This document shows, piece by piece, positions 804-60,095 of a DNA stretch of 64,000 nt. The notes beneath the pieces are model-generated. The model saw nothing but the letters and a program-made list of their open reading frames with translations, was not told the origin of the DNA and did not search any database. The position numbers were made by a program, and so were the translations under genes. Position 1 is the first letter of the stretch. Each line of letters opens with the position of its first letter. The stretch is from Yamagishiella unicocca (taxonomy: Eukaryota; Chlorophyta; Chlorophyceae; Chlamydomonadales; Volvocaceae). Location of the stretch: assembly GCA_003116995.1 (NCBI GenBank), contig BDSL01000014.1:434001-498000 (forward strand), given 5' to 3'.

Positions 804-3800
804 TTGCACATCGATACAATTATGGATTGTTTTGCGGAAGAATGCGACGAGCACGGGCAACCCGAGGAGGTCGACTGCGAGCTGGGCATGTTGCGCGAGC
901 AAATCGCCATGCTCACGAAGCAGTTCTATCACGATCGGCAGCAGTGGTTAGAAGAGAAGCGACGCTTGCAGGATGCCGCCAAGCCGCAACAGGCACCTTC
1001 CGATGATGTGCAGCCACAAGGTACACCTTGCAGCAGACACGGGCAACAACGCGTTTCCTCTAGCGTCCAGCTGTGCAGTGAAGCTGGCAGTGAGGCTAAT
1101 GGCGAGGACGCAAGCCAGGGCGGTATGAGCGCGCGGGAGCCCACCTCCAGCTCATTTACATCGTCATGCCAGTCGACGCGCAGTGCAAGCCCCACGAGCC
1201 CCAGCCAGACAGGTGCGCCTGTGTCCGAAACTCGGGCGCTTCTGCTTCAAATTGCACCGGGTTTTGCATCGCCGCGGTGGCGGGTGAAGCGGAGGGTGAA
1301 CACAATGTCATTGCCGGGAACGATTACGACGCACCTTGCACTTTTGTGCGTCACTGGCCGCCATTCGCTTGTTCATGGATGGGGTCAGTGCCATTGTCAC
1401 GCATCGAGTGTCTGGCGCCGTGATTTTTCAAAATCGCAGCGCCCATCTAAACTGTCCATCTAACCCGCTTCTAACCCGTTCGCCCAGCCTCTTGCTGTGC
1501 CTGTGGTCGCAACCCACCCATTCATTGACCTTACGTACTTTCTCGCCACAACCTGTTGGCCCCCTCATCGGGTGTCCGCAGACGCCGTGGTGGAAGCCAC
1601 CACCAGCGTGTCGAGCTCGGAGCTGCTTCTAAGCTTGACCGAATTGCAGCGGCAGCTTCAGGTGCGGTGACTAAGGAAAGCCCGTGGACTAGGAAGCCGA
1701 GTAGGAAACCGTTGGGTAGGAAACCGTTGGGTACACGCGTTTGGAGCTGCATGCTGGAGAACTTGGCGCGATGGAGGGGGCCCGTGAAGCGAGGCTTTGG
1801 GAGCGGTTGGGCGACAGCAAGCGCGCGCGTGGCATGGTGTGAGGGGCGAAGTGGCGTCAAGCCAACCCATTGCCCATTGGAGGGTTATGTTGCCGCTGTA
1901 CCGTACCCATGCATCGGCATGTTTGCGAATATCATCGCAACGAACGTGTTGTTATTGGCCCTGCCCCACCTCCCGCGGCAAACATGGGGTTGATTTGCAT
2001 GTCCTTGTTTTCTCCAGGAGAGCCGGCGGCAGCAGGAGTCGGCCGCGGTCCGGTGGACGCTTGAGCGCGAGGCGCTGCAGCGGCAGGTGAGCGGCAGGCA
2101 GGGAGGGAGGCAGGCAGGCAGGGAGGGAGGGAGGCTTTGAGAGGATGCCCGAGGGTCAACACATAGGAAGAATAAAGCCCTGGCTGGAAACGGTTTGAGG
2201 AGACAAGGAGGGAGCTATGGAAAGACGGCGCAGGGAGGCAGGGAGGGCAGAAGGATGGAGGGCAGAAGCACTGCGTCCGCTGGCGGCGGCAGAAGGGCCC
2301 TACTTCAGCTCCGGATGTACGGATGTATGAGAATGTACAGATGGATGGATGTACGCCACCCAGCTTCTCCTGCATCTGCGCCCCGCCGCACAGGTTCACG
2401 CGCTCATCAACATGTCTGCCGAGGCGGCACTGGACTCCGGTGGCGGCCGCACCCGGGAGCAGCAGGAGAAGCAGCAACAGCAGCGCAGCGGGGGGCCCCA
2501 CGATGCGGCGGCACAGCTGCAGGCGGAGCAGGAGGGCGAGGAGGAGCGGGAGCAGCTGCACGAGCGGGTTTCGGAGCTGGAAGCCATGGTGGAGGAGCTG
2601 CAGGTGTGGGGCAACGGCATCCTGCTAAAACCTAATCTCGGCTTTGCGTGTGCAGTCTCGTCTCGGCGTCTCGGCTGTGTCCGTGCGCAGGAAGCGGGCG
2701 TCTTTACTCATGTGTTTGTGTACGGTGGGGGGAATTGCGGAGGGAAGGGGGCGCAGCAGGGGGGTGTCGAGGTGCGGGGGCACATCACGGGAAATGGGCG
2801 TGGTGGCCCAAGCTGAGGTCGGTCAAGCCGTGGCTCATGCCGAGGGCGGTGCAGCGGCTTGAGGGAGGGGGCGGGCGGTTAGGACCAGCGCCTACGTGCC
2901 TTGCCCACGGCGCCGAAACCAAACCAACCACCCCTACATGTGCGCATCGGACACTCCGGACGCAGGCCGAGCGGGTGAATCTGGAGCAGCAGCTTCGAGT
3001 GGTGGCGGCTGATGCGACGCGAGCCAAACGCGCCACGCACTCCTTCTCCTCCTCCCCCCCGGAGGCGGCTCTCTCACCCAGCGCCGACACCGAGCCGAGG
3101 ACGCCGCCGGCCCGGGCGGCCTCGGACGAGGCGGGCAGCCCCTCCGCGCCCGCGTCCAGCTCGCGACGCGGCAGCACCGACGGCAAGGGCGGCTGGGCCC
3201 TGACCCTCACGGACAGCGTCAGCGTGCCCGCGCTGCTGGCTGCCAAGGCGGAGCTGGAGCGGGAGCTGCGGAGGTACCGGGAGGAGTTCGTGGCGGTGCC
3301 GCGGGCGGAGTACTCGGAGCTGAGCTCGGTGCACAAGCAGATGGTGGGGGGGCGTGGAGGGGTGTGTGGAGGGGACTTGGACTTCTCGGCCCGGGGGCGA
3401 GGAGGCAGGCCGGGGATACAGGTAAAAAACCGGTAACTCGACTGGGGTAATGTAGTTGGTGCATAGCTCTAGCGTCTAGCCGTCATACTTCGAACGCGCG
3501 CGCATGCGACACACACGGACGCGACGACTGTGGGTGCAGTGAAGAAGACGAAAACGTGGACTATATTATGGAGTGCAAAGCCGAGAACTGGGATGGCGAA
3601 CTAGGAAGCCGCGGGATGCACCGAAGGCTGGAGACGGCCCCGCGAGGAGGCAGGCCGGGGAGGGATGCACGCAGCAGGGGAGGAGAGGGCACAGGGCGGA
3701 GTGGGGCGGAGAGGGCGGCTGGGGAAGGTGGTGCGGGAGCACGTGGAGGGGTCGCGTTGGGGCCCAGGCAGCGGGGGGGCCGCGGTGTGGAGAGCGAGGG

Positions 3801-10255: not shown

Positions 10256-13200
10256 TTACACCATGCCGCCTCCTCCGCCTCCGCTGGCGTGCTGCTCCAG
10301 CGCCTGCAGCGCCGCCTGCATCGTCATCAGTGCCACCTCGGGGACGACCGCCTGCGTCGGAGGGAGGGGAGGAAGACCCGTGGATGCGAGAAGAACCGTT
10401 TAGGACAGACGTTTCGAGATGCATGCTGGAGAACTTGGGTGAGGAAAAGACAGAGGTCGTATGTCGGCCTTCGGCGGCTAAGCGAAATCGGCGTCGGCGT
10501 CGGAGGGTGGGGAGGGGGCGGCGGCAGCGTGGTGGAGTGGTGCAATGCAGCGATGGGGAGCCCAGGGATTGGAATCGTCAACCCCACACTAAAACAGTCT
10601 GCTGCTTCCCTACCACCATCGCACCGGGCTGGCCGCCATGCAAGGGTGGCCAGTTCAGCAGGTGCGACAAGCCCTAGGGTATCCCCCGGCGGTGTAATGG
10701 CTCGAGAGGGACGGACCACATGTTGCAACACGCCTGGTCGCAGCGGCTTGTCACAGGGGTTCAACAGCGAGTACAGACATGAGCCGCCTTGCGCTGCCCC
10801 CTGCCTCCGACCCCCTTCCCCCGACCCCCCTCCCTCCGACCCCCCGGCCGGCGCCCCACCCGCACCTGCAAGTGCTCCAGCTGCTCCAGCCGCCAAGCCA
10901 CCACCGTCAGCAGCCCCACCGCCACCGACAACAGGAAGGCCGCCAGCATCAACCACCTGCGCACCGCGCGAAGCGGCACAAGCAGCAGAGCGGGGGGTGA
11001 GCAAGCCAATCAGCGAGGTATGCGAGCAAACCAAGCCCGTCTGATTCCCGCCCTGTCATGTCTCCTCAAGCCCGAGCATATACCTATTTCCCTGGATCAA
11101 CTCAGTGCCGCTTTGCCGCCTGGAGCGCCCCCCTGGAGCGCCGACTCACTTGCGGTCGTTCCGCTCCACCGCTTTCATCCACAGGTTGCTGACGTGGTCG
11201 GTGCGCTCCCGCCAGCTGTCCTCCTGCGCGACCGGGGGGAAAGGGGTCACAGGGGCGGAGCGGGCGGCAGGTGGTTCCGGCGGTGGTTCCAAACGTAGTT
11301 CCGGCGGTGGTTCCAGACGTAGTTCCGGAGGTGGTACCAGAGGTGATACTGGCGGTGGTTCCAGACGTAGTTCCAGAGGTGGTTCCAGAGGTGATTCCGG
11401 AGGTGGTTCCGGAGGTGGTTCCAGAGCAGCCCGCGGGCGCACGGAGCCGCCGACCCGCAGCACGATGGGGGCGGAAAGGGGGGGGAGACGACCGCCGGGT
11501 ACCTAGTGATGCAGCAGCGCCCTGGCTTCCCCCCCGACGCCGCAACAACCACAACAGCTTCGCCACCAGCGCGTCCTTACCTCCCCCCCATCCTCCCCCC
11601 TTACGGCAAACCGCAATGTCCACCCCAACCTCACCACCCCATGAGGGACCACCCAATGAGGGACCACCACAGCAACCACCCTGACAGCCGCACCTTGAGT
11701 CGCTGCACCTCCGCCGCAATCTCCTCCAGCGGCAGGTCCGGCGGGATGTAGATGGCCTCCACGGGCTTGCTCCCCTCGTCGCTCCTGCCGCCCGCCTCGC
11801 CCTCCTTCCCCCGCTGCCCCTCCTTGTCCCCGTCCGACCAAAACTGCCACCACGGCTTGCGACCAGCCTTCCCGTCAACATCCCCCTCGCCAGCCGCCTC
11901 CGACCCCGCTGCTGCCGCATCCGCGTCCGTGTAATCCGCGAGCATGGGGTCGCCGCCTTTGGACGCCCAGAACTGCCACCAAGGGTGCTCCTCACCCTCA
12001 CCCTCGCCTTCCTGCCCCCCGGCCGAGTCCACCGAGGCAGAGCCCTCCGCGTCCTTGCCCCTGCCGCCCTTGCGCCTGCCCTCGCCCTCCTCCTCCTCGC
12101 CCGCGTGGTGCTGCTGGGAGCCGCCGCCGTACCGCGGCAGCCGCGACACAATCGCATCCAGCCAGTTGCTGCCGCCGCCCTCCGCCGCGTCCTCCTTCTC
12201 CTTCCCTGGCTGCTGCTGCTGCGGCTGGTGCGGCAGCTGGTGCGCTAGCGTCTCCCGAGCCTTCTCGAGGGCGGTGTTGGTCAGAGAGTGCGCGGACGCC
12301 GTCAGCTGAGCCAGCGCGCTCAGCACGGGGCTGACGGCGCCGCCGCCGCCACTGCCGCCGCCGCCGCCAGCTGCGGGGGCGGGGCGCTCCGCCTCCCCCT
12401 GCGCCAGAACCTCCGCTGCGATGTCGATCGGCTCCGCCAGGGAGTGCTCCAGGGGGGCCTGCTGCTGCGGCAGCTGCGTGTCCAGCAAGCGCTGCACCGG
12501 TGTGATGACGTGCAGCGGCAGGCGGCCCTGTCCGTCATCCGGCGACCTCCCCAGGGCGGCCTCAGAGCCCCCAGCGGTGTGTTCCACGCCACCACCGCCC
12601 CCCGACCCGGCGGCGGAATCCCAGTGGGGCTCGCCGGCGCCTGACGGCAGCAGACCACCCCCATTGGCGCCCTCGCCGCCGCCATTATTGCGCGGATAAT
12701 GCCCGTACGACGGGCCATCGCCGCCGCCGACCCCGGCCAAGTGCTCCAGCACGGGCGGCCGCTCGATGACCGCTGTGGCTGCCTTTGAGGCCGATAGGGC
12801 TGTAGCTGTAGCCGTCGCTGTAGCTGTCGCGACGGCGGCGGCACCTCCCGGCGCCATCAGCCCTACTGCGCGAGCCTCCACCGCCAGCGGGACCCCACCG
12901 CGGGCCTCCTCCGCCTCCTCCTCCTCCTCGCCCACCACGACACGCACTCGCAGCGCAGCGGCGCCGCCAGCCGCCGACACGAAGTGCGCGGCGGCGCCGC
13001 CGTCCCCATTCGCGCCCGCCGCCGCCGCGGCGCCGGCGTCAGTGCCTGAGGCCCCCGGTGCCGCCGCCGCCGCCGGCAGCGCCAGGCGCCGCTGCCTCTC
13101 GGCTGCCGCCGCCGCTGCTACCGTCGTCGCATCAGGTGAGGCTGACCCGTGGGTCGAGGTGGCCGGCTGCGCCCCCGAAACCGGCGGCTTCGGAAGAGCC

Positions 13201-16200
13201 GCCGCCGCCGCCGTGTTGCTGGCGGCCGGCAGCTGCTTGGGCTGCGCCGGCGGCAGCACCGCCAGCGGCTGCTGGCCGATCATCGAGGCCCCCTGGTCCA
13301 CGGCGCCCTTCGCGGCGCCAGCCGCCGCCGCGGCGGCCTCCTGTGCGGCTCGCGCCGCTCGCGCCGCCGCTCGTGCCGCGGCGGCGCGCGTCATTGCGAT
13401 GGCGGAGATGGCCGCGGAGGCTGCTACGGCTGCGCGGCTGCTGGCTGCTGCTGCGCTGCGGATGTCGGTGATGGGCGCCTGCGACGCGGCCTGCTTGGAG
13501 TACTTCTCCGCCTCGCGACACCCCGAGTCCTGCTCCTCGTCGTCAAAGGCCTGAGGAGGAGGGGAGGCGGGAGGGGGAGGGGAAGCAGGAGGGGAGGAAG
13601 ACCCGTGGATACGAGGAGGCAAGGAGGAGGAGGGGAGGGAGGAGGAGGAGGGGAGGGAGGAGGAGGAGGGGAGGGAGGAGGAGGAGGGGAGGAGGAGGGG
13701 AGGCAGGAGGGGGAGGAGGGCGAGGAGGGTGGGGTTGAGGTTGGGTTGGGGTGAGTTGCGTGGTGGGTTTACAATTTATGACTGGGTTACGATTTACTGG
13801 CTCATCCACCCATTTTGGGTTTAGGGTTTCAGGGAGGGGTGCGGCACGAGGGTGCCTACCTTGTACGACAGGTCCACCAGCACCTCCCCGGTGGGGACCG
13901 CCTCGCCGCCCGTGATGCCGTACGACCCGGCGGTTGGCTGCAGGGTGACCCACATGGACACCTTGCCGCCCTCCTGGGACGAGCGGAGGGGGGAGGAGGG
14001 AGGGGGGAGGGGGAGGGGGAAACCCGGGTTGGAGACGAAACAGCAGGAAGAGAGGAGAGGAGGGGGGGAGGGCATGGTCGGGAGAGGGCGGGAGGCGGCG
14101 GAATACCATGCAGTTGGTTGACGGTTGGCGGTTGGGTGCCAGGAGGGCATTCCCGGATGTGTGGTACACAGCCACCGCCAGCTCTCCCTCCGGGGAGCTG
14201 TCCCGTCACAGGCCCTGGAGGGCCCCACCGCCACAGCCCCCCCTCCGCGTCCAACAGCTGCCGAGTGCGCTCGCTCACCGGTCCGTGCTCCGCCGCCAGC
14301 AGGTCCTCCAGCCGAATGGACGCCCGCCCCACCTCCGTGCGACCAGTCAGGTGGCTGTCCTTGACGATCATCTCGAGAACCTGCGGGACGAGCACCGGAG
14401 CGGCGGCGGTGGTGGCGGTGGTGGTGGCGGTGGTGGTGGCGGTGGTGAGGGTGAGGGTTGGATGCGCGGGAGGGGGAGGGGCAATGCAACTACAGGCGTC
14501 AACGGTGCCGAGGCATCGTCTGTACGCCGGTGCGCTCCCCCGCCTCTAGAGCCTCCCCCCCCTCTAGAGCCTCCCCACCCACGTCCCTCCAGCTACCGAT
14601 GGTATTGACCCTTCGCCTATTCTCCCGTGTATGCCATCCCCACGGTCCCCTCACACCCCTGCCCACGTCCCCGGGTCTTCTCGCCCCCTCCCCCTGCCCT
14701 GCACCCCCACTCCCCCTGCCCACCAGCACCCCTTCCCCCCTGCCTACCTGCACCGCGGGGTCCTTCACCAGGAACTGGAACTCCTGGTTCCACACGGGGG
14801 CGCGGTGGCGGCCCGGGTGGCTGGTGTCGCCCTCGCGGCGACTCTGGACGGCCTGGGGGGGGAGGAGGGAGGGCGCGGCAGGGCACATCGGGGTGGGAGG
14901 GTCCGAGAGAGACCGGGGGAGGAGCCGAGGTTGGAAGGAGCCGAGGTTAAAGGAGGAGCCGCAGTGAGGAGGGGGAGCCGAGGTTAAAGGAGGAGCCGCA
15001 GTGAGGAGGGGGAGCCGAGGTTAAAGGAGGAGCCGCAGTGAGGAGGGGGAGCCGAGGTGAAAGGCGGTGCCGCAGCTCCCTCGCTGCCCCGCCGCCGCGA
15101 CGTCACCTCTTTTGCCGCATCCCCCGTGCGCCCGCGGCCGCAGGCCCCTCAGCCTGGCTCCCCCCGTTGCTCTCTCCACCGGTGCAACGCCCGCACCCTT
15201 GCGTGGGGGACATTACCGCCAGGCCCCCCCTTGCGCCCTGTCTTGTTCGCGTCAACGGTTTTCACGCCACCCCCCTTTTGCGTCCGCACCTGGTCCCCCA
15301 GCAACAGGCGGCAGTAGGGGTTGCTCTGCCCCGGGAAGCCCCACACCGGCAGGTTGCGGGCCTCGCGCAGGGTCACCCCCAGCTCGCCCTGCAGGCGGGG
15401 AGGGAAGGGGCGGGAGTGGGGTGAGAGGCACAGGGCGGGAGTGGGGCGCACGGGGCGTGAGCCCGCGCGTGACGGCGATGACGTTGTCATGCGCGAGGCT
15501 CCCGAGAACCGCGCTGGCCCGTCAGGTCGGTCAAGGTTGCCGGATGCGCCGGCACCTGATAAGCGACGCTCCATGAATGCGGAGGGCGCGCGCAGGGCCG
15601 GGCTTCCAACGCGTTCCTATTTCGACTTCACGTTGGATGAGCTGGAGGATGTGCTGACCGTCGGTGGATATGCCACCAATGAGACGGTAGCAACTCGCTG
15701 GCTCATCCAACGTGAAGTCGAAATAGGAACGCGTTGGAAGCCCGGCCCTGCGCGCGCCCTCCGCATTCATGGAGCGTCGCTTATCAGGTGCCGGCGCATC
15801 CGGCAACCTTGACCGACCTGACGGGCCAGCGCGGTTCTCGGGAGCCTCGCGCATGACAACGTCATCGCCGTCACGCGCTCAGGGCGGGAATGGGCCCGCA
15901 CGATGGGTGCGTACGGGCTGTGGAATGCACATGAGCGCGTAAGTTGCCGGCACTCACGGAACCTTGCGAATACTGGTGGCCCAAATACTGCGATCAAGGT
16001 CTTTAATCTGATCATCTGGCCACGGGCCAAAATTATACAAAGCCCCCCCCCCCAGCAGCTCATCAACTCCAGGGTTTGAAGGGGACTTGAGGGGGGCTTT
16101 AAGGGTGGGGGTCGTAGCACAACGCCAACGCAGCGGCAGCACAACCGCAGACGTACACGCGGCTGCTGCTGCTCACCTTGAACGCCTCCGGCAAGGTGAT

Positions 16201-24600: not shown

Positions 24601-27600
24601 TGTTGGAGCTGCACCGGCGTTCCTACCTGCGGCTCCTCCTGGCTAGCTGGGATGTCCAGCGCCTTGGCCGTTCCCTAGGACCCCGTGCGTCGCCATTCAG
24701 CGAGTTTTGCTGACATGCGTCGTCTGTGTCAAACGTGTTCATAGTGCCGTCTAGCCTCTGCTTCAACTTCTGCACCCTCCTTAACCCTCCTTGACTACAT
24801 TATCCCTCTGCTCCCCTCAAACCCCGTCCCCTTGTCACACGGGCCACATACCACCACCTCTCAAACGCGCTCGTCGGCACACCTCCACCACCACCCGGCA
24901 CCACATCTCCACCACATGTCCACCACTATTCGGGACCACCACCACCAGCTGCCCAGCCTCAAGCGCTTCCTGGAACTGCCTCGCAAGACGGAGCAGCAGC
25001 GCGAGGACAAGCGCAAGTCGGTGTACGACGACCAGATGAGCAACGAGGTGGATGACTACTACTTCCACCACTACTGCTGCCACTTCGCGCAGCCGGTCAT
25101 CGCGGACGTGTACGCCTTCGTGCCGCAGGTGGGGGTCGTGCCTTTCCGCCGGTTCTGCTAGGAGGTAGCAACCTAACACAACCATGCATACGGGACGGTG
25201 GTTGCGCACCTCCACTAACATCCAACGGGAGAATCCGGCCCCGGTCTACGGGTTCCCCCTCCTGCCTCCCGGCCTAACGCCCTGCGCCCATCCCCCGGAA
25301 AGTACCCTCCATCCCGCCGCGCCACGATATAAGCTCAGAGCCGCAAAACCCAAAGACGCGTTTCTTCACCACCCTCGCTCCCTGGCCTTCCCCAGATCAT
25401 GACCTGGGACGACCACGACATCTTCGACGGCTGGGGCTCCTACCCTCAGCACCTGCAGGCCTCCAACGTGTTCCAGTGCATCTTCAAGAACGCCGACCGC
25501 TGGTACTGCGTGTTCCAACAGCACTGCCGGTACGGCAGGGCGGCTCGGCCGCAACTCGCGCCACTACTTGGACGTGCACCTGCTGACCCCGGCCCCCCGC
25601 CCCCGGGGCTCTCTTGGCTCACGTGGTGCCGTGCTGGTCTGCTTTCGCCCTCGTGTTGCCCTATCTTGCCCCATCTGCCTGCAAGTATATTTGTTTTCTT
25701 GATGTGCTGGGGCTTCGTAGCTTGGGACACTCGTCCTTCCGTCCGTCCTCTTGATATGATACAGACCAGCCTTGCCCCCGCCCTCGCTCGTCCTCCCGCC
25801 ACCCCGACGAACCCCCGCCCCACCCCGACGCCCTCCCGCCTTGACGCCCCCCGGCCCCACCCCGACGCGCCAGCTATCCTGTCCCTGTCGCGTAAACGAT
25901 TTTTATGCCACCCCACGCCGACGCCGTGTTTGCTGCCCAGTCCTGAGGAGAAGCAGCCGGTGACGGTGTACGAGGTGGGCAGTCGTACGGCCATCGTGGC
26001 CTGCGACCAGCGGCAGAGGCGGCGCAAGAACCAGATCCTGCCGCTGGAGCACTACATGGAGATCACAAACCTGTGCACGAACCTGCCGAAGGTAGGGCTG
26101 GCGGGCGTGGAGGGTTGAGAGGAGACCCGTGGGTCGTCAGGCTCAGAGGACTGCAGCGGAGGGAGGTTCGAGGAAGACCGGGAGGGAGGGAGGTTCGAGG
26201 AAGACCGGGAGGGAGGGAGGTTCGAGGAAGACCGGGAGGGAGGGAGGTTCGAGGAAGACCGGGAGGGAGGGAGGGAGGGGATGGGCTCACGCTTTCCAAC
26301 ATCCGCACATCCGCGCGGCCGTCCAGCTACCCACCCGCCTCGAAGCCCCTGCTCCCGCCCCTGCTCCCGACCAACCAACCGCAGGGCATTGAGCACGTCG
26401 TGTTCGTGAGCACCGTGCCAGTGGTGTACCCGCACATCCTGGGCGCCAGCCCCGTGCTCAACGTCCTCAAAAGCGGCATGCTGCAGTGCCTGCTGGGCAG
26501 TATCGGTGAGCTCATGGCCGCTAGCTGGCTGTCCGGTTGCCTGGGAAGGGCCAGCGGCGGGCCCGCCTCTTCCTTATGGGCCCAGCCGCGTCAAAGAAGC
26601 GTCAAATCGTGACACCGTGACGTGACACTGTGGCTTTTTGTCTTTGCTCATCACTAACTGTATTATCATGAGCGAGCGGACGCCTCCGCCAATCTTCTCC
26701 GCCCCAGGCCTCAAGCCCATGAATGACTTCGGGGAGCCGGAGCTGCTGGATGATATCAACGACCACTGGTCCACACCCAAGTGAGGCGGCTTGGGTGATC
26801 GAGCGATATGGCGTGTAGCCAATTGGGTTGCGCGCGCGGGTTCGGCGCCATGGTGCGATTGGAGGATCGCCGTCCGGTCGTTGGTGCTGCGAGTTCAGCT
26901 GCTCACCTGGGCCCCTCGCCTCAGTCTGCGCAATCGACGTTGCTCTAAATACGCACCACCGCTGTCCTTACCTCGCCGGTAGCTTCCCTTCGCTCATCGA
27001 GAACCGCCCTGTCCCCAACCCCACCACGACCCCCAGCCACCACGAGGAGCGGCGCTTCCTCATCGAGCACCTGCAGATGCTGGCCAAGTACCGCGGCTGC
27101 CGAGTGACGCTGCTGTCAGGGGACGTCCACGTGTGCGGGGCGGGCAAGCTCATCAGCCACCCGGCGCCGCAAGAGAACGCCCTGCGCCATGACGTCCGGT
27201 GCGCTGTGGGGCTGCTAAGCGGCCGCAAACGGGGGGGGCAAAGAAGCAGGGGGGGTGCGCGCAAGTATTGGGCGGGTGAGGCAAGGTGAAACGGTTCATG
27301 GCAAGGAATAGTTGGACGATAAGGGCGGCGATGTTGGTGACGGAAGGATGTACGCGACGAGCGAGGCGGGGCAGTGTAGACGGAAGCAGCGGGGTGTAAG
27401 GTACTGGTGAAGGTGTAGGTGTGTCGCCCGCGGCCTCCTGACGGTGCCAACTGCCCACTGCTGCCACTGTGTCGTGCACCCAATCCGCTCGCAGGTATAT
27501 GGTGCAGGTCATCAGCTCCGCGATCGCCAACCCTCCGCCGCCTGGAGGCCTGATGAAGGTGCTGGACTTCTTCAGCTGGCCCAGCAACATCAACAAGAAC

Positions 27601-44300: not shown

Positions 44301-47300
44301 CATCATCAGCAACACTGTGTCTCCTCGAACCCTCCTCCTCCCAAGTTCCCCCCACCTGGGGGGCACAACCCGTCCGCGTCCAGCTTGTCGTACGTCCCGT
44401 GCTTCATCTTGGAGGTGACCACTGGGTCGGGCGCCTCGATCTCCTCACGGGCCAGGCTGCCGGCCTTCTTCTCCTCCTCCTGCGCATCACCCGCCAGGCA
44501 GCAGCACACATGAGCACGGCAGCGACAGCGCCGAGAGATGATGTTGAGGCGGACGGGTCCGGCCAACAGATCAGTCGCGCCCGTTCGAAACCGATCCGCA
44601 AAACCGATCGTCAAAACCGATCCTCAAGGGTAGAGGAAAGCTCAAGGGCAGCGGCAAGCCAGGCCAACGAGGCGTATGGGCTCTGCCAGGGAGTTGCGAG
44701 GGCGCTGGCAGCTAGGGACGCAGCCGATGACCTCCATCGGGCCCTTGCTTACCCCTTACCCTCCGTCTACTCGCCAGCTATGTCTTCTTGGACCACAATT
44801 ATCATCGCCTTTGGTTTGTCGACCGTGTATTCACGGATCTTATATACCCTCCCCTTAACGTCCCCTGCACATACCCGGCCCAGCCCACGGGGCCCATGTT
44901 TCCTCTCATACCCCGCCCACCCGCCGCCCCCCTCCTCCTCCCGGCGCCCACCTTGTACGCGCGGTAGAAGATGGAGCGGTGGAAGCCGCGGTCGATGGAC
45001 GAGCCGTTAAGCATGAGCGAGTCTTCCTGGTTGTAGCCGCTGTAGCACATGATGGCCACGATGGCGTTGATGCCTACCGGGGGGGAGGGGAGGGGAGGGG
45101 AACAGAGGGGATGGAGGGAGGGGAGGGGATGGAGGGAGGGCGCTGGTGGAGATCCGGCATCCCCCTGGTGCCCTTTTGCGCCCCGCGCCGCCCGCTGTAG
45201 CCCGCCGGCGAACCGTCCCCAACCACTTAATCCACCGAAAGGCCCCATAACCTTCCGCGGCCACCACCAAAGCAATCGTCCCTTTTTTGCCACAACAATC
45301 GCCACGCCGCTTTACCCTCTCCCCTCCCCTGCACCTGCGCGCTAATATTCACAGCTGCCCGCCCGCTGCTCCCCCTTCCCCCCGGCCCCACGCTGTTCCC
45401 ACCCTGACGTTGTTTCACCCATCCAATCCAGTTGATATCGCATCTCACTACCTTGCAGCAGGCATCCTTGGTGTATTGGCTGGTTTATTCCACTTATATA
45501 AACGTCCTATTTGTTTATATAGGTATACGCCCTAGATTCGTTTATAGTTTGGTTAGTCTACGTGTAGTACCGAGCCAGTGCTATCAAGCAGGCCCCCTTC
45601 CGCCCCACCTGCCGGCAGCTCCCGGAACTTGAGGTAGTCCATGGCCCGCGTGCACACCAGCGGCTTCTGGGGGTAGTACAGCACGAAACCCTGCGGGGGG
45701 GAAAGGGACCGGCCGAGGACGGAGGAGGGGTCAGCATGTGCACGTGACGAGTACGACGAACCTACCGGGTATCTCTCTTCGCCTCTCCCCTTCCTCGAAC
45801 CCCTCCCTAGCCTCTGCCGCCTGCCACGCTCCTTCCCTCCACTCCCACGAAACCCATTGTCACACAGCTCCCTGCCCCCCTAACCCCCCCCACGGCGGCC
45901 GCGGATTCACGGAATCTCTTATAACCCCCCCCCATCGCGCTCCGCCCCTCTCCGCCCTGCTGACCTGCGTGTCCATGCGCGTCTGGTAGTTGGTGGCGTA
46001 CATGCCCATGGCCTGCTTGCCCATGGCGCTCTGCGGGAGACACCGGGGGGGGGGCGGGTTTAGAAGAATCCGTGAATACGGGGGGCGGGGGCGCGGGGCG
46101 GGGGGGTCGGCGAGTCAAGGTTGCGGTTGCAGGCTCGCAGTGGGGGAGCATACGCGGGCGCAGGGGCTGGCCCGGGGCGATGCCGAGTCACGCCACACCG
46201 CGCCTCACCACAGCGTCCTTTCCGCTACCATTGCGGGCGCTGGTAGCCGTCACGAGCTGTCCCACTGGCTACCGCAACTGCCCTCTGGCGACTTTCAAGG
46301 CGAAGACCTCTCCTGCCTGCCCCCCAAAGCACGCGGCCTTCGCTGCTGTGCGCCGTGTATTTTGGAGTACGTCGTACGGTATACGTCATACGTCATACGG
46401 CACTCGAAAGGTTCCGTGTGGCCGGGGTGGCCCTCACCTGGTAGGTGTTGCGGGGGGACTGGTTGTGGTCGGGGAAGGGGATGATGGATGCGCACACCCC
46501 CAGGATCATGGCGGGGTGGATCTCGCTGTGGGTGTAGGTGGTGCCGGTGGCCGCGCCCGCCTCTCGTGCGTTGCGCAGGTCGGCGATGGTCATGGCGATC
46601 ATGGTGGTCTCCTCCTCTTCAGCGTCGATGTACCTGGGGGGCGTCCAGTTATGGGGGGCGGAGGAGAGAGAAACACACGGTGGATGTCCCGCGAGGGACG
46701 CGGGTATACAGCAGGGGGATGGGCGCACATGCAGCGGCTTTCGGTCCACGGTCCCAACCTCTCCCGCCTTCCAAATCTCCGGCTGGAAGTCAGCACCCTC
46801 CTCCGTCGAACCACCGGTTTCCTCTCAGCCTCAATGCCTCAATCTTCAACCGGCGGCGGTTTCGCTTCGATCCAGCAGCTCCGCCCCCCCCGCGGGTGGT
46901 TCCTCCCTAACGCTCCCCGCCCCGCCCCGCCCCTCCGCCGGCGGCGCACTCACTCCACCAGGCCGTCCTGCACCAGCTGCGGCCAGGCGTACTCCTCCTC
47001 GTCGGGGGCCGGCGAGATGAGGCGCCGGATGTGCTGCTTGGTCACCAGCAGCCGGTTGCCCTCCACGATGTAGAGCGGGCGGGAGGTGCGGCCGTAGTCG
47101 GTGAAGATGCGGAGCTCCTTCAGCGGGCCATCGTAGATGATGGCCACCTGAGGGGGTGGGGTGGGGGGTGGGGTGGGGAAGGGGGGGTGGGGGGGCAAAA
47201 AACACCGTTTACGCGACGGGACAGGATAGTTGGCGCATGGTCGTCGGACACCGTTTTTGTGGGCGCATGCTGGAGCACTGGGAGAAAAAAGGGGGCACGT

Positions 47301-50300
47301 GCGGGGGGCAAATGACCCGGTTACGCGACATAGGAAACGGTGGTGGGGGGGGGGTTCGAGGGAAACCCGTGGATGTCCGAAAAACTGTTTGAAACAGAAG
47401 TTTTGAGATGCATGCTGGAGAACTGGGTTGGGGATACTAAAGCTGAAGGTCGCAATATGACGCCGCCGCCGTGCGTTAGGGCCCGGGGAGGGGAGAGGGT
47501 GTTTCTGAGCCCCTCGCTGGACGGGTGGCGCACCTCTGTGCTGAATGCGACCTGGCGCCGCATGGCCCTCAAGTTCTTGATGAGGGCGGTGGGGTCGCGC
47601 TGGATGCCCAGCCACACACCGTTGATGAACACCTGGGGGGAGGGGGGCGGCATAAGGACCGGTTACACAAAGGGGGAGGGTTACAGAAAAGAACCGGAGG
47701 AGGGGAGGCGACAGAGGAGGTGGGAGGCCGGGAGGGGGAAGGGGAAGCAGCGCGAGTGAGGTCCCTGACGCCGGGCGATGGCGACAAAGGTTGGGCGACG
47801 GATGGAGGGCTGGGAAAAAGGCCCGTTTCCGCGACGTGATGGGGGGGGGAAGGGACCGCAAACAGCCGCACCCTTCGCTGTGCTACCTACCCCGCCTCCG
47901 GCAGCTGACAATTCGCAACCGCGGGTGTGTGTTGCTGCTGCCACTGCCTGTTCCCACGCCGACGACATGGGGCCCCCCGCCGACGACATGGGGCCCCCCC
48001 GCCTTGACCCCCCACCCAACGCTCTGGCCCCTCCTCCCCACCTTGGTGGACGCCGCAATATCCGCCGGCGTCACCTCGTCCAGTGCCTCCGTGTTGAACT
48101 CCTCCAAGTGCGCCACCACGGGGAGGGAGGGGGTGCCCACTGCAGGGGGCAGAGGGGGCCGCGAGGAGGGGGGTTTCGAGGAAGGCCCGTGGATGCGAGA
48201 AAAAAACCGTTTAGAGCAGAGGGGGGAGGACGGTGAGGGTGATGAGGGTGATGAGGGCAGGCCGGCAGGGTAAGGGAGAAGGCGGCGGCCCCGCCTGCTC
48301 TTCCCCCCTGCCCCACGGGTTTTCCTTGCACCCCCCCTGGCCCCCACGCACCCCTGCCCCCCACGCACCAGTGATGTAGCACATCATCGCCATGTTCTTG
48401 ACCAGCCCCACGGCCTGCCCCTCGGGCGTCTCGGCCGGGCAGAACATGCCCCACAGGCTGTTGTGCAGCTGCCGCGGCTTGGCGAGCTTGCCCTCGCGAC
48501 CGATGGGGGAGTTGACGCGGCGCAGATGGCTGAGCGTGGAGGCGTACGTGAGGCGGGCCAGCACCTGGCTCACACCTGGCGGCAGGACGACAGGAGGCAG
48601 CGGTGAGCAGGGAGGGGTGTAGGGAGGGGTGTGGGGAGGTGTGTAGGGAGGGGTGTAGGGAGGTGTGTAGGGAGGGGTGTAGGGAGGGGTGTGGGGAGGG
48701 GTGTGGGGAGGGGTGTAGGGAGGGGTGTAGGAAGGGGTGTAGGGAGGGGTGTAGGGAGGGGTGTAGGGAGGGGTGTAGGGAGGGGCGTGGGGAGGGGTGT
48801 AGGAAGGGGTTCTGGCCGCCTGCCTTGCCTGTGGTGCCCCGGTCCCCGGTAGTCGGTACACACCAGGACTGCTGGCACCGTAGTAGGCAGGGACGCGTGT
48901 CATACACACATCCCCCCTCCTTTGTTTGACATCGCCCCTGCCTTCACCCTCGCGGTCCACCTGCCCTGCTCACCTGCCCTGATGCCCTGCTTGCCCTGCT
49001 CGCCCCAGTTGCCGGTGGCCAGCGAGTACTTGAGGCCGCGCGTGACGATCTTCTCGTTGATGGCGGACAGCACGTTGATCTCCTTGCCGGCGTCCACCTG
49101 GGAGGAAGGGTATTGCCGCGTGTTTCCTTGTCTCATGGGAAGAAGCCACCCGCAAGAAAGCAACCCACATGAAAACATGCAACCATTAGCTTATCAGGAG
49201 ACCCGTTTGCTTTGCCGACACGCGTTTGAGGGGGATCGCGAGGAAGACCCGTGGAGGGGGAGGGGTGCCGGTGCTGGCGCAACGACCCGCGGCAGCAGCG
49301 AGCATCAGACGCGGCAGTGACGCGGGTCGCCCTCCTCCCACGGGGCCTCCGAGGCTTCCGACACGCAGCCGACCCAACCCCCAGGCTCTCCTCTTGACCC
49401 AGGCCCTTCCCTTACCAACACGACGAGCACCCGCATGTGGGCACCCGTTTCAACACACCCAAGCCCACCCCGCCCGGCACAACAGCCACGCCAGCAGCCG
49501 CCAGCACTGCACCTCTCCCCCCCCAGGCGCACGCGCACCATCCTCTGCGCCTGCATCCGCAGCTCCTTGCACAGCTTGCGGAACAGCAGTCTGAACAGCC
49601 CCGCCATCAGCGGCCCGCCCAGGTCCAGGCGCTTGTTGGCGTAGTGGTCGCGATCATCCTCTGAGCGCCGGTTCAGCGCCACCAGCATCAGTCTGGGGCG
49701 AGAGTGAGAGGTATGTGTGCGTGTGTTTGAAGTATGCTGAGCTGTATGTGTGCGTGTGTGTGTGTGTCTGTTTAATTTGCGGTAGGCAGTGGGGTGCGCA
49801 GGAAGGGAGGGGAACCGGGGGGATTTCAGGAGGCAGGCGGTCGCCTGCCCCGCCAACGATACCAGAGCAGCTCCCACCCGCGGCATACACCACGTCTGAC
49901 AGCCCAGTCGCCCTACCGTGTTTTCGGGTCACTGATCCGCCCTTGCCCAACCTCGTCCTTTGGCCGTCCCCCATGGCACCGGCAACCTCGATCAGAGGCC
50001 CCCTCGAAATCCCCCCCAATACGGCCCCCCTCCCATCATAAGGCCCCCCTCCCCTTCCCCGGCCTGCACCCACCGGTGCACCATGTATCCCACGAAGTAG
50101 CCCTTGCGGGTCTCCATGAACTCCTCCGTGCCCAGGTGCGGCAGCAGCTCCTTGATCAACAGGTTGCGGGCGTACTGGATGCGGTCGGCCTGAGGGGGGC
50201 GTGCGAGGGAGGGGGGCCAGGGAGGCGGGTGACCCCCGGGTCGGCCTGCGCTTGGAGCGGCCCCCGCGTCAACCCCACCATGCCCGGCTCACGAGCAGGT

Positions 50301-53300
50301 GGGCTCGCTTCACCCTTGCCATGTCGGCTAGCCCTAATCTCTTGGCCTTAGGGTCTAGTCCTGACTGCTACAGGCACCCACTTTCCTACCCACCCAACTT
50401 TCCTTCCGCGAACCCCCAGCCCAACCCCATTCCGTCTCTCCGCCCCGCGCTCCAGCAACACGCAGACATGCCCCTCTTCACCTCCCACCCATGCAGCGTT
50501 CCTTCCTAGGTTCCCAACCCGGCAAGCCACGGTCTCCGGTCGTGGGCTCTCCCCCCTCCTTCCCCCCCCACCCTTGCGGCGCCCCTCCCAGCCGCAGCTC
50601 GCTGCTGCCACAACAACTGCCCCCCACCCAGAAGATGATCCCCTCTTTTGCCGCCCCTGCCTCTCCCCCCGCCCCTCCCTTCCCCGGCCTCCCCCCCCTC
50701 CGGTCTTCCCCGGCCTCCCCCGGCCTCCCCCCCTCCGCACCTTGCTGGCGCCCGTGACCGTCCCTCGCTTGCCCAGGTAGTTGAGCGCCTCCTCCTGCGT
50801 CTGAACCTCCTGCGCCTCCTCCACACTGGCCCTCAGCGCCTCCAGCATGGCAGGATCCGTATCCAGGTCGTACACAATGTGCTCCAGGATATCGCGATCG
50901 GACTGCGCGGCGCAAGTGTGCAGAGGCGGATGTTGCGAGTTGTCCAGGGAGGGGCTGGGAGCCGGCAGTGGCATTCTGCAGCAGCAACATGGGCTCCACC
51001 CCCCCCGCCTTCCAGCCGCCCCAGCACGCCTCCTGCCGTGGCCCCAAACCCATGTACCGAGTCTACACGCCAACGCCCCCGCCTCCGTTCCGTTCACTCG
51101 CCACCCCTCTCTTCTGGACCACCACCTTCATCGCCCTTGGTTTGTCGGCCGTGGATTCGTGGATTGTCCTTTACCCCTTCCCCCACACGGGTCTTCCTCG
51201 AATTCCCCCCACGTACCACGAATCCTAGCGCCCTGAACAGGATGAAGATGGGGAACTCCGCCCGGATGTAGGGGATCTGTGCGCGGATGACACCCGCCGC
51301 GCCCGCCTTCTTGCCCTTGGCCAACATCATGATCGACATGGAGGAGGCGGAGCGAGTGGAACCCTCCACCACGGACCTGGAGGGGGCGGGGGCGTCCGGG
51401 GAAGAGGAGTGGAGGTGGGAGGACAAGACGGGGGAGAGGCAGGGAGAAGCCGAAGGCCAGGGGGAGGCCATCGGGCTTGCACCGTGCCAGTGACTACCCA
51501 TGCCGCTGATTGCCACCCAACCCAGATCAAAACTATGACCCTGCGAACGCCCCACTGCCGCTATGCTCTGCCCGGTCGACATACCAGCTCACTTTCTTTA
51601 TTGCATTTTCGCAGACCTCTGTCCGCCCCTCGCGGACCCGCCCCTCCTCCCCAGCCCCTCGGCGACACCGCCACACCGCCCCGCCTCCTGCTCGCGCCGC
51701 CTACCTAATCTCCGCGCAAAAGGTGTACTTGCTGGGCTGGCTCTTCTTGAACACGTACACGTGGTTGTTGGCCATGCGCTCCTGCGCGATGAGCACCTTC
51801 TCACTGCCGTTGATGATGAAGTAGCCGCCCTGGGGGGGGGAGGAGGTTGGGGGCCGGGGCTTAGCGGAAGCTTAGCGGGAGGCGCCCAGGCTGCAACACG
51901 CCTGACCCGCTCCCAAAGAAACCCAGCCTCAAACTATAGGCTGCCGCTGTTGCCGCTGCTGCAGCTGTTGCCGCTGCTGCAGCTGTTGCCGCTGCTGTTG
52001 CCGCTGCTACTGCCGCACCTGGTCGTAGGGGCACTCTCCCAGGTTGGTCGCCTCCTGCTCCGTGGACGCCTCGTGCAGGTTGCAGCGCTCCGACTTGAGC
52101 ATGATCGGGACCTGGGGGCACCGGGCAGACCGGGGAGGGGGAGGAGCAGCGATAAGGGCTGCGGTCCCTCCAGGCAACCCAGCCCAGATGACGCGCAGGT
52201 GCTGAGTGCGGTCCCCCCGCGGCACCAGGCGGTCAGGAGGTCAGGCGGATCATCCCCCGGGATCTGGAGGGTGAGGAGCCACCCCGTTGCGCGCCACCCT
52301 GAGGCGGGCATGGAAGCAAGGGGCCAGGCGCCAACCGCTGGACAAGGCGCCGGTGGCGGCCCACCTTCGCCCCCCCCCACGTGCACTGGCTGCCATGGAC
52401 TAGTCCGGCTCGTGCGCCACCCGCCTCCCGTTGAAAGGATCACAACCCGCGCATCGCATCTTCTCGGCCCAGCGGGGGAGAATGTCCCTTCCAATCCACC
52501 GCCCACCGCGCGTTTGTACGGTGCACGACAGAGGAACCACGTGAGGCAGGCTCAGTGCCGCCGTGTGCCAGCCATTTCACGTCCCGTGCTGCAAGGAAGT
52601 GGTGGCAGCATGTCGTGTCCCTCCAGGGGGGGCCGTTGGGACTGTCAGGAGGCGGATCTGTCCCCGTCACCTCCCCCACCGCCGCCAATACACCGACTCG
52701 ACCCAGAGAACGCCTTCGACCCAGATGACGCAAAGGCAATTACACTCCTGTCTTGCTGGGGCCGGGCTTCCTCGTCCTTTCCGTCCTTCGCCGTGAGGCA
52801 CGTGGAGCGCCTCTTCAAGACGCCGACGCACCAGAGCCTCGCAGATCAGGCCAACGCGCACATGGAATGGTAGCGTGCGGACGGCGCCAACGCCTCAGCA
52901 CTCGAAGCGGGAACGCGGGCTCCGACGTGCCTCAACACAACGACCCCAGTTGCGTGTCGATGCGTGCAAATAGCACCCGCCCCGCGAGCTCTGCTCTGCG
53001 AGAGTGCGGCGGGCCCCAGTCCCGGCAGCCTTCGCGGTCCTTACCTTGCCCAAATGCACGTGCGAGAACGTCTCCTGCTTCTCCTCCACCGTGTCATCAG
53101 CCAGCCGCGTGTACTCCGTCTTCGTGACGTCCACGTACAGTGGCGCGCAGTAGCTGCGCAGGACGGGACAGATGTTTCCGGAACCGGTCACGGTCCACAG
53201 CTGGCGAACGCTAGTGGGCGCCCGGGCGTGTATTGTACGGCTACTCACGAGAAGCCTCGTATGGAACTCGGCGGGAGGGTTGTGGAACCCCTATTCCCCA

Positions 53301-57200: not shown

Positions 57201-60095
57201 CGGTCGTGGTGGGGCTGCAGTCCGGTTGCGCGGCTGGTGGCCATGGCCCGGCGCACGGGGGCGACGCCGAGGGCGCCTTGCTGACCCGTGGGTCGGAGTT
57301 TTTGGTCTGGGAGCTGCTCCACGAGATCGGCCACGCGCTGCATTTCCTGCTGGCGGCAGCGCCGCCGCCGCCGTCGCCGTCGCCGCCGCAGCCTGAGGCG
57401 CCGCAGTCTGAGGCGCGGATGTCGCCCGGGAACGACAGGGCTGGCGCCGCGAGGCCGGGATTGCGAGCACCGCGAGGCGGCGCACTCGCCGGGTCCGGGG
57501 GAGCACAACAGGTGCAACCGCCTCTGCGACAGCTGCGCCAATCACTTTTGCCGTACCAACTGCCCCTGGAGCTGGTGGAGCTGAGCTCGTCCTTCCTGGA
57601 GCGCGCGGCGGCTGAGGCCGAGGTGGTGCACGTGATGCTGTCCGAGTGCAGGTGGGGTGGCATGAAAACCGGTTACGCGACACGGATAGGATAGCTGGCG
57701 CGTTGTCTTCGGACATGGGGCGGGGTGGGGTGCAAGGAGTCCGTGGTTGACGTCCCAGGGCGCGCGCCGAGGAAGCCCGGCGGATGGGAGGGGGGGCCCG
57801 GGGCTCGGGGGCCCCGGGGCTCGGGGGGCTCGGGGGGTCCGGGCACTGTGAAGGCGGGGCTCAACCAGGGGCCATCAGGGATGGGGGTTTTGATAAGAGA
57901 ATCCACGAATCCACGGCCGACAAACCGAGGGCGGTGAATGTGATGGTCCAGCGTGTTGAAGTGGCGCTGGTCGAAGGTAGAGGCTGCCCGTCGATGAGTA
58001 GTGTTGAAGTTCCGGCCCCTAGGCAAGTAGCCCGACATGTAAGTGCCGAGGGCGGAGTGCCTGTGCTAGGCTCGCCTAGCACCTACGGTATCTAGTAAGC
58101 ATTTTCGCGTTGGGCGCGCTGGCGGTGCGCCAGCCAGAGGTCTGTGAGCTTGCCAACGTCCTTGGGCTGCATCGCAGGCACGTCATAACGGGCGGGCCGG
58201 CACCGCCAGACGTGTGCGCCGCGCTGGCTCGTGCCGTACGGTCGTCGCACTACAGCCCCATAAGCGTGCAAATACAGGTGAGCTGGTGGGGGCCGAGCGT
58301 CACGGCACTCAGCTCACCGCCCCGCACTGGACGCACAAGCACCACTATCCTGATGTGTCGGCGTGCCTGTGCGCCTGTTGCTACTGCTGTGATCCTTCGA
58401 CGAGACTGCCCTACCGGCGATGTGAAAGGGAGCTCGTGCATGGGCTCATCTACTGGCCCTGCAGGCGAGTCGAGCCAGGGCTCACGGCGGTACCCGCAGG
58501 CTTGTGGTGCATCCCCGGTAGCACCCGGAGCTACCGCACCCAGCTGAACGCCTAGGGCCGGCTGGGGTCCGGAACCTGAGCGCCACAACGGCACACATTG
58601 TCACATCACACTACATACGGTACACACATATGGTACATCGTACCATATCTGGACCACCGCCGCGGGCGATTGCGGCGCGCCCCAACCGGCCTCACATCCA
58701 GGCGCCTTCCCCCTTCCCTAGGCCTTCTCCTCCGCCTCCTGTGTCGTGTAAATCGGCTTTCTCGTCATCCCTCTCCCTGCAGGTGCTCTCGTCGCTTCTT
58801 GACCAGCTCCTTGCCATGTCGCCTCGCAAATCGCCCGACATGGCGAGGCGCCTGTGGCCACAGCTCATTGCCAACTTCGCGCCGTCGCTGCCCGTCGACT
58901 ACACCGTACAGCAGGTTGGAGGGGTTGCGAGGAAGGCCCGTGGATGCGAGGAAAACCGTTTAGAACAGACATTTAGGACAGCAGGCTGGGGTGGGGTGGG
59001 GTGAGAGAAAATCCGTACAGCAGTTTGGGGGGGAAGGGCGCGTGCATGGGGTAGGGTCTAGAATAGGGTCTAGAACGCCATAGGGTCTAGAACGCCATAG
59101 GGTCTAGAACGCCCCTCCACGCTGCCAACCTATCGTTCTCCTCGCTCCTGAAACTGCCGCGCCCCTCGCCCGCTGCTGGACCTTCTTCTGCAAGCTAGTG
59201 CTGCCTCCTGCCCGATGTTGGACCGGTGGTTTTCTCCTATCCTCCGCTGTCGGCGTCCCGCTGCTGTGCTCCTCCGCAGCTGCACTCGATATCCCGCATC
59301 GCCGCGGCGTCGGGCCAGGGCTACTCGTATGTGACGGCGGCCTACCTGGCGGATGAGCTTTGGAGCGCATGTGGGTTCCCCGGGGACATGGAACGGCGGC
59401 AGCAGCAGCCAAAGCCGGAGCGGCAGCGGGAGCGAAAGCAGCAACAGCAGCAGCAGCAGCAGCAGCTGGGGATGGAGATGGGGATGGAGATGGGGATGGA
59501 GATGGGGATGGGAGCGGCAGCTGCGGGCACTGCTCAGCGCGCTGCTGCTTCAAACGTCGCCGGTGCTAGTCTGGATGTAGTGGGAAGCGGCTCGGGCTCG
59601 GCTGATGGAGACGCTGGGCTTGATGTGGGGCTTGTGCAGCGGAGCCGTGGGCACGGGGGAGGCGTGGGCGGTGCGGCTGATGTGGCCGGGGGCACCAGCA
59701 AGAGCACGAGCTCGGGGGCAGCCCCAGGCGGTTTCACCACGGATGCAAGTCGCGGCCAGCGCGGGAGACTGGTCCGGCGGTGGCTGTTCGAGCGGGACGC
59801 ATCAGAGCCCCCGATGACCCTACTTTCGCGGCTGCTGGGCGAGATGCATGCCGCGGTGGTGACGGTGAACGGCGCTGCGGACCCCGAGGGCGAAACAACA
59901 GGCGAGGCAGCGTCGCGCAGGCGGGAGCGGGGTGGCGTGCAGGAGCGGGGTGGCGTGCAGGATCTGGGCGGGACGCCGCCGCCGCCGCCGAGCCCCCTGC
60001 CGTTGATTCGCGTTGCGGGCGGCGGATGCGTGCCGAGGGTGTGCACTTCACGCGTTCGGCGGTGGACTGGGGCGTTCTTCCGCCGGAGATTGTGA
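54269..60095 (+). CDS. M3-family zinc metallopeptidase, mitochondrial intermediate peptidase-like, 6 exons, 1318 aa
   Basis: Exons 54269-55543, 55855-56136, 56300-57651, 58178-58277, 58783-58914, 59280-60095; phases agree. The first ~60 residues (MLVAPVAYSATYLL..., Arg/Ala/Ser-rich) look like an organelle presequence. The N-terminal part (LWPDLLTHIDALAASVSDVR and following) resembles the helical start of mitochondrial intermediate peptidase. The zinc motif HEIGHALH is at 860-867; the third ligand is probably Glu946 in PLELVELSSSFLE. The substrate-side block HSISRIAAASGQGYSYVTAAYLADELW corresponds to the GYSYL region of M3 enzymes. Activity is removal of short N-terminal peptides or oligopeptide breakdown. 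Low-complexity Gly/Ala/Pro inserts make it nearly twice the family length, including one of about 55 residues between the zinc ligands. The last ~230 residues contain poly-Gln and (MEMG) repeats; the C-terminal border is the weakest part of the model. Confidence 0.85.
57655..57720 (+). mobile_element. Family B introner-like repeat (M3 intron 3, donor side)
   Basis: The donor is at 57652 and the intron opens GTGGGGTGGCATGAAAACCG, then GTTACGCGACACGGATAGG, then ATAGCTGGCGCG. The element outer end therefore begins about 6 nt inside the intron. Confidence 0.85.
57885..57955 (-). mobile_element. Family C introner-like repeat (M3 intron 3)
   Basis: AAGAGAATCCACGAATCCAC, then GGCCGACAAACCGAGGGCGG, then TGAATGTGATGGTCC. 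Reverse complement of 51115-51172. Confidence 0.8.
58925..58990 (+). mobile_element. Family A introner-like repeat (M3 intron 5, donor side)
   Basis: GTTGCGAGGAAGGCCCGTGG, then ATGCGAGGAAAACCGTTTAG, then AACAGACATTTAGGACAGCA. It starts about 10 nt after the donor at 58915. Confidence 0.85.
59050..59113 (+). repeat. 21-bp tandem repeat (M3 intron 5)
   Basis: Copies of TAGGGTCTAGAACGCCA, three to four units, each carrying a TCTAGA palindrome. Confidence 0.8.

Follow-up and report, generated by a model that had tools for sequence, protein, structure and literature searches.

Short repeats in green algal introns: probable truncated retrocopies that land on G/C-runs and lengthen existing introns

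Introduction

Short repeats that recur in the introns of unrelated genes raise the question of whether they created these introns or were added to introns already present. The window analyzed here (the whole stretch of 64,000 nucleotides, C14:434001-498000, from an assembly of 133.4 Mb in 1415 contigs) contains three such families, termed A, B and C. A first-pass annotation had described 16 copies plus fragments, confined to the introns of five unrelated genes and, with few exceptions, close to a splice site, and had interpreted them as transposons that generate introns. In the excerpt of PMC9860276 available here, introners are described as inserting into exons and thereby creating introns, with target-site duplications of 3-9 bp and terminal inverted repeats in part of the families. 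Our search of the open-licence literature found no description of families A, B and C, and nothing combining introners with volvocine algae.

Results

Host genes and gene models

The window contains the RPB2 gene on the minus strand. The protein stitched together from its exons shares 96% identity with that of Astrephomene gubernaculifera and 95% with that of Chlamydomonas incerta, with other green algae reaching at most 73%; these identities place the source genome among the volvocine green algae or their close relatives. Spliced alignments of the C. incerta and Astrephomene proteins have 24 RPB2 introns of 189-933 nt in common, and the introns proposed from 41341-41356 onwards, which differ between the two alignments, represent C-terminal alignment noise. 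Further genes were predicted with a home-made hidden Markov gene finder, which was trained initially on RPB2 and thereafter on its own predictions for the window and additional loci. The predictor recovers the RPB2 introns, apart from noise at the 3' end and occasional spurious splitting in the 5' part. It also proposes a coiled-coil gene (plus strand), an SMP/C2 gene (minus strand), a PhoD-like gene (plus strand) and an M3-like gene (plus strand) in which HEIGH is present.

The SMP/C2 gene matches Pfam PF25669 at an E-value of 3e-8, just below the curated cut-off, and its homologues carry PF00168/PF25669. A homologue of the M3 gene carries PF01432, and the Pfam search of raw reading frames recovered neither M3 nor PhoD. 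Homologous proteins uphold the copy-hosting introns of SMP/C2 (Volvox carteri, Gonium) and M3 (Pleodorina, Volvox), and place the A-bearing SMP/C2 intron at 10352 to about 10859-10865, versus a predicted end at 10613. Among the five unrelated host genes named earlier, RPB2 is therefore certain and SMP/C2 and M3 are supported, whereas the coiled-coil and PhoD-like genes, like all models outside these three, are products of the home-made predictor and keep the names given by the first-pass annotation.

Several other features were observed in this region. The SMP/C2 intron 16267-16627, which carries an A copy, starts with GC (GC-AG) in two alignments of homologous proteins. A perfect 178-nt inverted repeat (15465-15642 / 15701-15878) with a 58-nt loop lies inside the SMP/C2 intron 15389-16176; it is a young hairpin and possibly represents a small-RNA precursor or an inverted-repeat transposon. 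About 1 kb of 8-nt-spaced repeats (about 17377-18400) falls mostly in the SMP/C2 intron 17463-18713, and diverged tandem copies of about 430 bp occupy 34541-35722, an exon-poor stretch of lower GC. The C. incerta homologues of SMP/C2 and RPB2 (HXX76_013322 and HXX76_013327) have locus numbers five apart and are listed on contigs of identical length, so that the SMP/C2-RPB2 gene order is probably conserved with C. incerta.

Repeat copies in the window and in sampled loci

Self-matches of the window in blastn reached E-values of 1e-21 for family B and 1e-12 for family A, and pairs of C were also found. A profile search with nhmmer yielded 16 copies, namely seven A, six B and three C. The three families thus stand as described, far above chance, and so does the count of 16 copies plus fragments, with two short pieces in addition to the 16 profile matches. 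The features are as follows.

1673..1766, plus strand: family A copy, sense to the coiled-coil gene, at the 5' splice site of predicted intron 1662-2017 (nhmmer match 1721-1766, from profile position 29; diverged start set by eye)
3422..3508, plus strand: family B copy (nhmmer), sense, 78 nt from the 5' splice site of predicted intron 3344-3979
10354..10363, no strand: target-site duplication GCGTCGGAGG, first copy, adjoining the SMP/C2 3' splice site
10365..10499, plus strand: family A copy, antisense to SMP/C2, 13 nt from the 3' splice site at 10352
10497..10506, no strand: target-site duplication GCGTCGGAGG, second copy
15237..15274, minus strand: short B-like piece, adjoining the 5' splice site of SMP/C2 intron 14853-15289
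16499..16548, minus strand: family A copy, sense, 79 nt from the 5' splice site of SMP/C2 intron 16267-16627
17077..17151, plus strand: family B copy, antisense, 20 nt from the 3' splice site of SMP/C2 intron 17057-17351
23432..23516, minus strand: family A copy, antisense, 26 nt from the 3' splice site of predicted PhoD-like intron 23104-23542
25864..25907, minus strand: family B copy, antisense, 33 nt from the 3' splice site of predicted intron 25530-25940
33001..33075, minus strand: family B copy, probably intergenic, any exon junction being more than 600 nt away
44797..44839, minus strand: family C copy, sense, 112 nt from the 5' splice site of RPB2 intron 44480-44951
47197..47271, plus strand: family B copy, antisense, 49 nt from the 3' splice site of RPB2 intron 47148-47533
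47354..47449, plus strand: family A copy, antisense, same RPB2 intron (47148-47533), behind the B copy 47197..47271 and in the same orientation
48174..48220, plus strand: family A copy, antisense, 34 nt from the 3' splice site of RPB2 intron 48140-48368
49230..49266, plus strand: short A-like piece (repeat pair), RPB2 intron 49098-49538
51122..51165, minus strand: family C copy, sense, 51 nt from the 5' splice site of RPB2 intron 50903-51216; a short piece resembling A (by eye) lies between copy and splice site
57661..57715, plus strand: family B copy, sense, 9 nt from the 5' splice site of M3 intron 57652-58177
57900..57942, plus strand: family C copy, sense, same M3 intron (57652-58177), behind the B copy 57661..57715
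58908..58919, no strand: target-site duplication ACAGCAGGTTGG, spanning the M3 5' splice site (exon ...ACAGCAG, then GTTGG)
58925..58977, plus strand: family A copy, sense, 10 nt from the 5' splice site of M3 intron 58915-59279 (far end set by the repeat that follows)
58978..58989, no strand: second, intronic copy ACAGCAGGCTGG of the M3 duplication, in which the GT reads GC

Profile matches in the window and 47 fetched loci amounted to 78 A, 35 B and 22 C. Family A is abundant in the genome: the 40 scored among 1738 first-look candidates were 94-100% identical over the matched part. In heuristic counts, the number of these candidates falls from 1738 for a query from the tail to 418 for the middle and 182 for the far end. 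Most A loci were picked as best matches to one copy, and 40 of them by a 77-nt match, which under-samples short copies. Copies older than the reach of the profiles are missed. Two contigs, represented by loci L030 and L033, carry a recent duplication of 3.5 kb or more that includes A, B and C copies and is 99% identical between them.

Anatomy of the families

As drawn, family A has a fixed start, consisting of a G-run followed mostly by T(T/G)(T/G)CGAGGAAGACCC, and its other end varies widely between copies. Across 68 copies, the end points spread over profile positions 44 to 943, with small clusters near 90-101 and 148. The longest copies, with the twins L030/L033 set aside, show roughly 72-91% identity across an alignable length of about 0.7-0.86 kb, and matches to the outermost common segment mostly end at positions 124-136 of the 144-nt query. 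The family A sequence thus forms the tail of an element that measures about 0.7-0.95 kb and in which no coding domains are recognisable. Family B has a fixed and a variable end like A, and its longest common stretch outside the L030/L033 duplicated segment is about 0.3 kb. A GGG was found no more than 14 nt from the fixed end in 67 of 69 A, 32 of 33 B and 14 of 21 C copies. As for C, its profile begins a few nucleotides into the element, and the listed C starts mostly show the G-run further out.

All three families are drawn here as the reverse complement of what would be the RNA sense of the elements. No Pfam domains were found in the three RNA-sense frames of two long A copies, and stop-free stretches in this sense reach about 140-200 aa, which is not unusual in such GC-rich DNA. 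A donor-like CAGGTGA(G/A)TT is conserved in the RNA sense at 10 of 11 long A loci (L009, L030, L033, L051, L052 and L054-L058, with L030/L033 being one duplicated segment). An acceptor-like C-run plus CAG was rejected as a conserved feature of long A copies, being present at that place in one of five. Furthermore, the 3' tails are free of AG over 61 (A), 34 (B) and 44 nt (C); shuffles gave P values of 0.065, 0.19 and 0.26, respectively, and an adaptation of the tails to splicing was not upheld. Where an antisense copy lies no more than 45 nt from the 3' splice site (n=20), the intron retains a long AG-free stretch, with a median of 75 nt versus 55 nt in the comparison set (n=241).

Location in introns

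An exon junction lies on the fixed-end side of 15 of the 16 window matches, and the earlier description as confined to introns was overstated. The exception is the B copy at 33001-33075, which is alignable to another B copy over about 313 nt and sits in a stretch of about 28.8-38 kb with almost no predicted exons. The statement that nearly all copies lie close to a splice site was likewise overstated, as the fixed end is within 51 nt in 10 of the 16 matches and within 25 nt in four; the remaining fixed ends are 78, 79, 112, 206 and 248 nt from a junction, besides the one without a junction within 600 nt.

In the window and loci together, the fixed ends of the 135 matches fall in predicted introns in 129 cases, in predicted intergenic DNA in five and in a predicted exon in one. 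An intronic location is weak evidence by itself because introns make up most of the sequence. In an arbitrary set not selected for copies (the window plus eight 10-kb stretches, 144 kb), 106 kb were predicted as intron, 34 kb as exon and 3.4 kb as intergenic, with an intron fraction that is overestimated since the simple gene finder under-calls intergenic DNA. This set holds 22 matches, 16 of them in the window, and only 17 of its 159 exon-flanked introns carry a copy. Extrapolated to 133 Mb, these matches correspond very roughly to 20,000 recognisable copies.

Flanking direct repeats

Direct repeats with a local-repeat score of at least 10 flank 25 of the 68 A copies (both twins L030 and L033 included), versus 6.7% of mismatched pairs from different loci; at a score of at least 11, the figures are 18 of 68 and 3.1%. 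No direct repeat scoring at least 10 was found in 43 of the 68, and duplications are thus readable in a minority of copies. Many of the best direct repeats end in Gs adjoining the fixed end. Together with the fixed and the graded, truncated end, these repeats bear out the earlier view that the families are mobile elements.

The two duplications in the window lie at protein-confirmed splice sites. More specifically, the SMP/C2 repeat has a period of 143 nt, lies inside the intron and stops just short of the 3' splice-site AG; by arithmetic, the 514-nt intron minus one repeat unit is about 371 nt. The M3 repeat has a period of 70 nt and a score of 9.5, which leaves it outside the class of at least 10, and doubles an existing 5' splice site; here, the 365-nt intron minus one repeat unit is about 295 nt.

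G-runs and proximity to splice sites

Proximity was assessed in 82 copies with a readable fixed end in introns whose flanking exons are at least 30 nt long (the number is also 82 without L030, the twin of L033). The fixed end is within 40 nt of the outward splice site in 34 of them (41%), compared with 29% of the GGGG sites of copy-free introns and 9% under a uniform distribution; the far end is this close in about 1%. Sense copies lie in the 5' half of the intron in 40 of 43 cases, and antisense copies in the 3' half in 41 of 44. In copy-free introns of the window and loci L002-L048, read in gene sense, GC skew falls steeply, with a value of +0.34 for the first fifth of the intron and -0.35 for the final fifth. 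The 5' half contains 642 of 839 G-runs of at least four, and the 3' half 571 of 735 C-runs. Because introns run from G-rich to C-rich and the target is a G-run, copies come to lie near splice sites and to point outwards, and this G/C-run target preference accounts for the greater part of both the closeness to splice sites and the orientation rule.

A second comparison was made with G-runs matched for run length and local G count, but not for the full target motif (n=76, after dropping L030, copies without GGG within 12 nt, which were 5 of 82, and runs less than 6 nt from a junction). Fixed ends are within 30 nt of the splice site in 36.8% versus 23.0% of controls (P=0.0035), within 40 nt in 42.1% versus 30.5% (P=0.015) and within 60 nt in 59.2% versus 42.8% (P=0.001). 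Likewise, the outward rule is followed by 81 of 87 copies versus 1213 of 1574 G/C-runs (Fisher P=0.00016). G-runs therefore leave a modest splice-site excess unexplained, which reflects either a narrower target motif, or selection sparing insertions at the edges, or splice sites attracting integration.

Two or three copies were found in each of 14 introns. Adjacent pairs have the same orientation in 11 cases and opposite orientations in five, and all five opposite pairs have the sense copy on the 5' side and the antisense copy on the 3' side. Tandem arrangements include C-B-A (L039), B-A and C-A. Each duplication would make a new G-run, and copies may pile up side by side in this way.

Residual length of host introns

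The far ends of the 82 copies were set by profiles of 99, 76 or 44 nt that cut longer copies short, and family A was therefore retested with a long profile in 48 of the 68 copies, the other 20 lying outside exon-flanked introns. The distance from the far end to a splice site is at most 40 nt in 1 of 48 copies and at most 60 nt in 3 of 48. Both ends are within 40 or 60 nt in none, and within 80 nt in one, contrary to the idea that copies start and end at splice sites.

Host introns have a median length of 444 nt. Minus the copy and its duplication, 311 nt remain, versus 284 nt in 241 copy-free introns, and none of the 71 residual introns is shorter than 60 nt. The slight surplus over copy-free introns (P=0.005) perhaps stems from undetected older copies or from B and C ends cut at profile length. 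In the arbitrary set alone, 17 host introns have a residual length of 297 nt versus 277 nt in 142 copy-free introns, and in 41 host introns containing only A copies, with long-profile ends, the residual length has a minimum of 129 and a median of 311 nt. With respect to the host gene, 43 copies are sense and 44 antisense. The orientation of introners is expected to be fixed by their splice signals, since introns are spliced in one direction only. The earlier claim that the repeats generate introns is thus contradicted by end positions, residual intron length and orientation; the copies probably lengthen introns already present and give no sign of having created them.

Comparison with known retroelements

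A fixed 3' end with graded 5' truncation, as in non-LTR retrocopies, is present here, and so are target-site duplications, in the readable minority. In non-LTR retrocopies these duplications are often about 7-20 bp long, and a 3' poly(A) or simple-repeat tail is not universal. Such a tail is absent from the listed copies, whose fixed ends stop at the G-run (a C-run in the RNA sense). A strict pattern for the Pol III A or B box found no match in the alignable part of five long A copies, and only a loose A-box-like string occurs in the GC-rich middle or tail of long A copies. Rfam gave no relevant match.

Possible partners were sought at eight reverse transcriptase-bearing loci (L059-L066), sampled from 150 scored among 610 first-look candidates. 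By eye, L059, L062, L064 and L065 are Ty3/gypsy-like, L060 and L061 are LINE-like, and L063 could be assigned to neither type. No A, B or C tail was found downstream of the eight, of which only two are LINE-like and one (L066) has a region that stops before the end of its open frame. At L060 (G000:C5:1579200-1581700), the LINE-like 3' end lies, by eye, a few hundred nucleotides from a tRNA-like sequence. A DNA transposon or MITE is not favoured, one end being truncated at graded positions. In their mode of action, the families are like non-autonomous retroelements copied by target-primed reverse transcription. They are not assigned to the SINEs, since neither a Pol III head nor a partner tail was found.

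LINE and SINE retrocopies made by target-primed reverse transcription have a fixed 3' end, a variable 5' end and duplications of 10-14 bp. A, B and C resemble them in all three respects, but differ in that their G/C-run target coincides with splice-site-proximal sequence, which gives rise to the orientation rule in introns. The SINEX families of C. reinhardtii, as far as the excerpt of PMC3747384 describes them, end in (ATT)n, (CTTT)n or (A)n, with RandI/Dualen and L1-1_CR as LINE partners. Like A, B and C they are non-autonomous retroelements, in this case of a relative, presumably moved by LINE enzymes recognising the 3' end. In contrast to these, A, B and C end at a C-run indistinguishable from the target, a distinction drawn from the ends listed in that excerpt and not from the sequences.

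Discussion

Our findings make it likely that A, B and C are 5'-truncated retrocopies of small non-autonomous retroelements, which land on G/C-runs and lengthen existing introns. The elements would work like a SINE or another RNA moved by a non-LTR reverse transcriptase, the partner enzyme being a postulated part of the model. An endonuclease may nick the strand just after a G-run, and the free 3' end may then prime reverse transcription from the 3' end of an element RNA that appears to end in ...AACCC. Synthesis would usually stop early, leaving tails of mostly 40-150 nt and duplications of about 10-14 bp. With G-rich intron starts and C-rich intron ends, most genic targets would lie towards splice sites and point outwards. 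Selection would tolerate insertions in introns and leave them nearly absent from exons, so that existing introns would be lengthened from their edges.

The families share with the introners described in the available part of PMC9860276 the occurrence, in an aquatic organism, of numerous similar non-coding copies within the introns of unrelated genes, but a copy here is part of an ordinary intron, its duplications are about 10-14 bp and its ends are unequal. That each copy nevertheless made its host intron by insertion into an exon, bringing or recruiting splice sites, with flanks that grew later, seems very improbable. Only one end lies near a splice site, an ordinary-length intron remains in 71 of 71 cases, sense and antisense copies are equally common though introns splice one way only, and two or three copies occur in each of 14 introns. 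These outweigh the many similar copies in unrelated genes, with fixed ends often a few nucleotides from splice sites, the one duplication that spans a 5' splice site (58908-58919 / 58978-58989) and the donor-like motif of the long A copies. Still harder to credit are immobile, conserved intronic elements under selection for splicing or regulation. Position and orientation relative to splice sites would suit such a role; graded truncation, flanking direct repeats, the occurrence of both orientations and the scarcity of copies, which were found in just 17 of the 159 exon-flanked introns in the arbitrary set, all speak against it.

A variant closer to the preferred model keeps the same retroelements but has their integration guided to splice sites beyond G-runs, for example through coupling to splicing or through R-loop-exposed G-rich DNA. 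The excess over matched G-runs and an outward rule that copies follow more strictly than G/C-runs do point in this direction, but the excess is only moderate, the controls cover run length and local G count rather than the full motif, and errors in gene models blur both signals; we regard such guidance as unlikely. If the machinery were drawn to splice sites beyond base composition, successive insertions that face outwards would extend introns inward at both edges. Now and then, a new intron could also arise from one of the rare long insertions in gene sense, whose conserved GTGA(G/A)T donor-like motif would need only a downstream CAG. We give this combined scenario a similarly small chance.

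Retrocopies added to existing introns, the reading preferred here, bear on the architecture of algal genes. Core-Reinhardtinia algae have conspicuously long introns and lack the usual 60-110 bp peak, according to the portion of PMC8226300 available here. Abundant retroelements that add mostly 40-150 nt near intron edges are a testable contributor to these long introns. Moreover, a target preference combined with base skew can mimic introners, which calls for caution in scans that identify introners by intron similarity alone.
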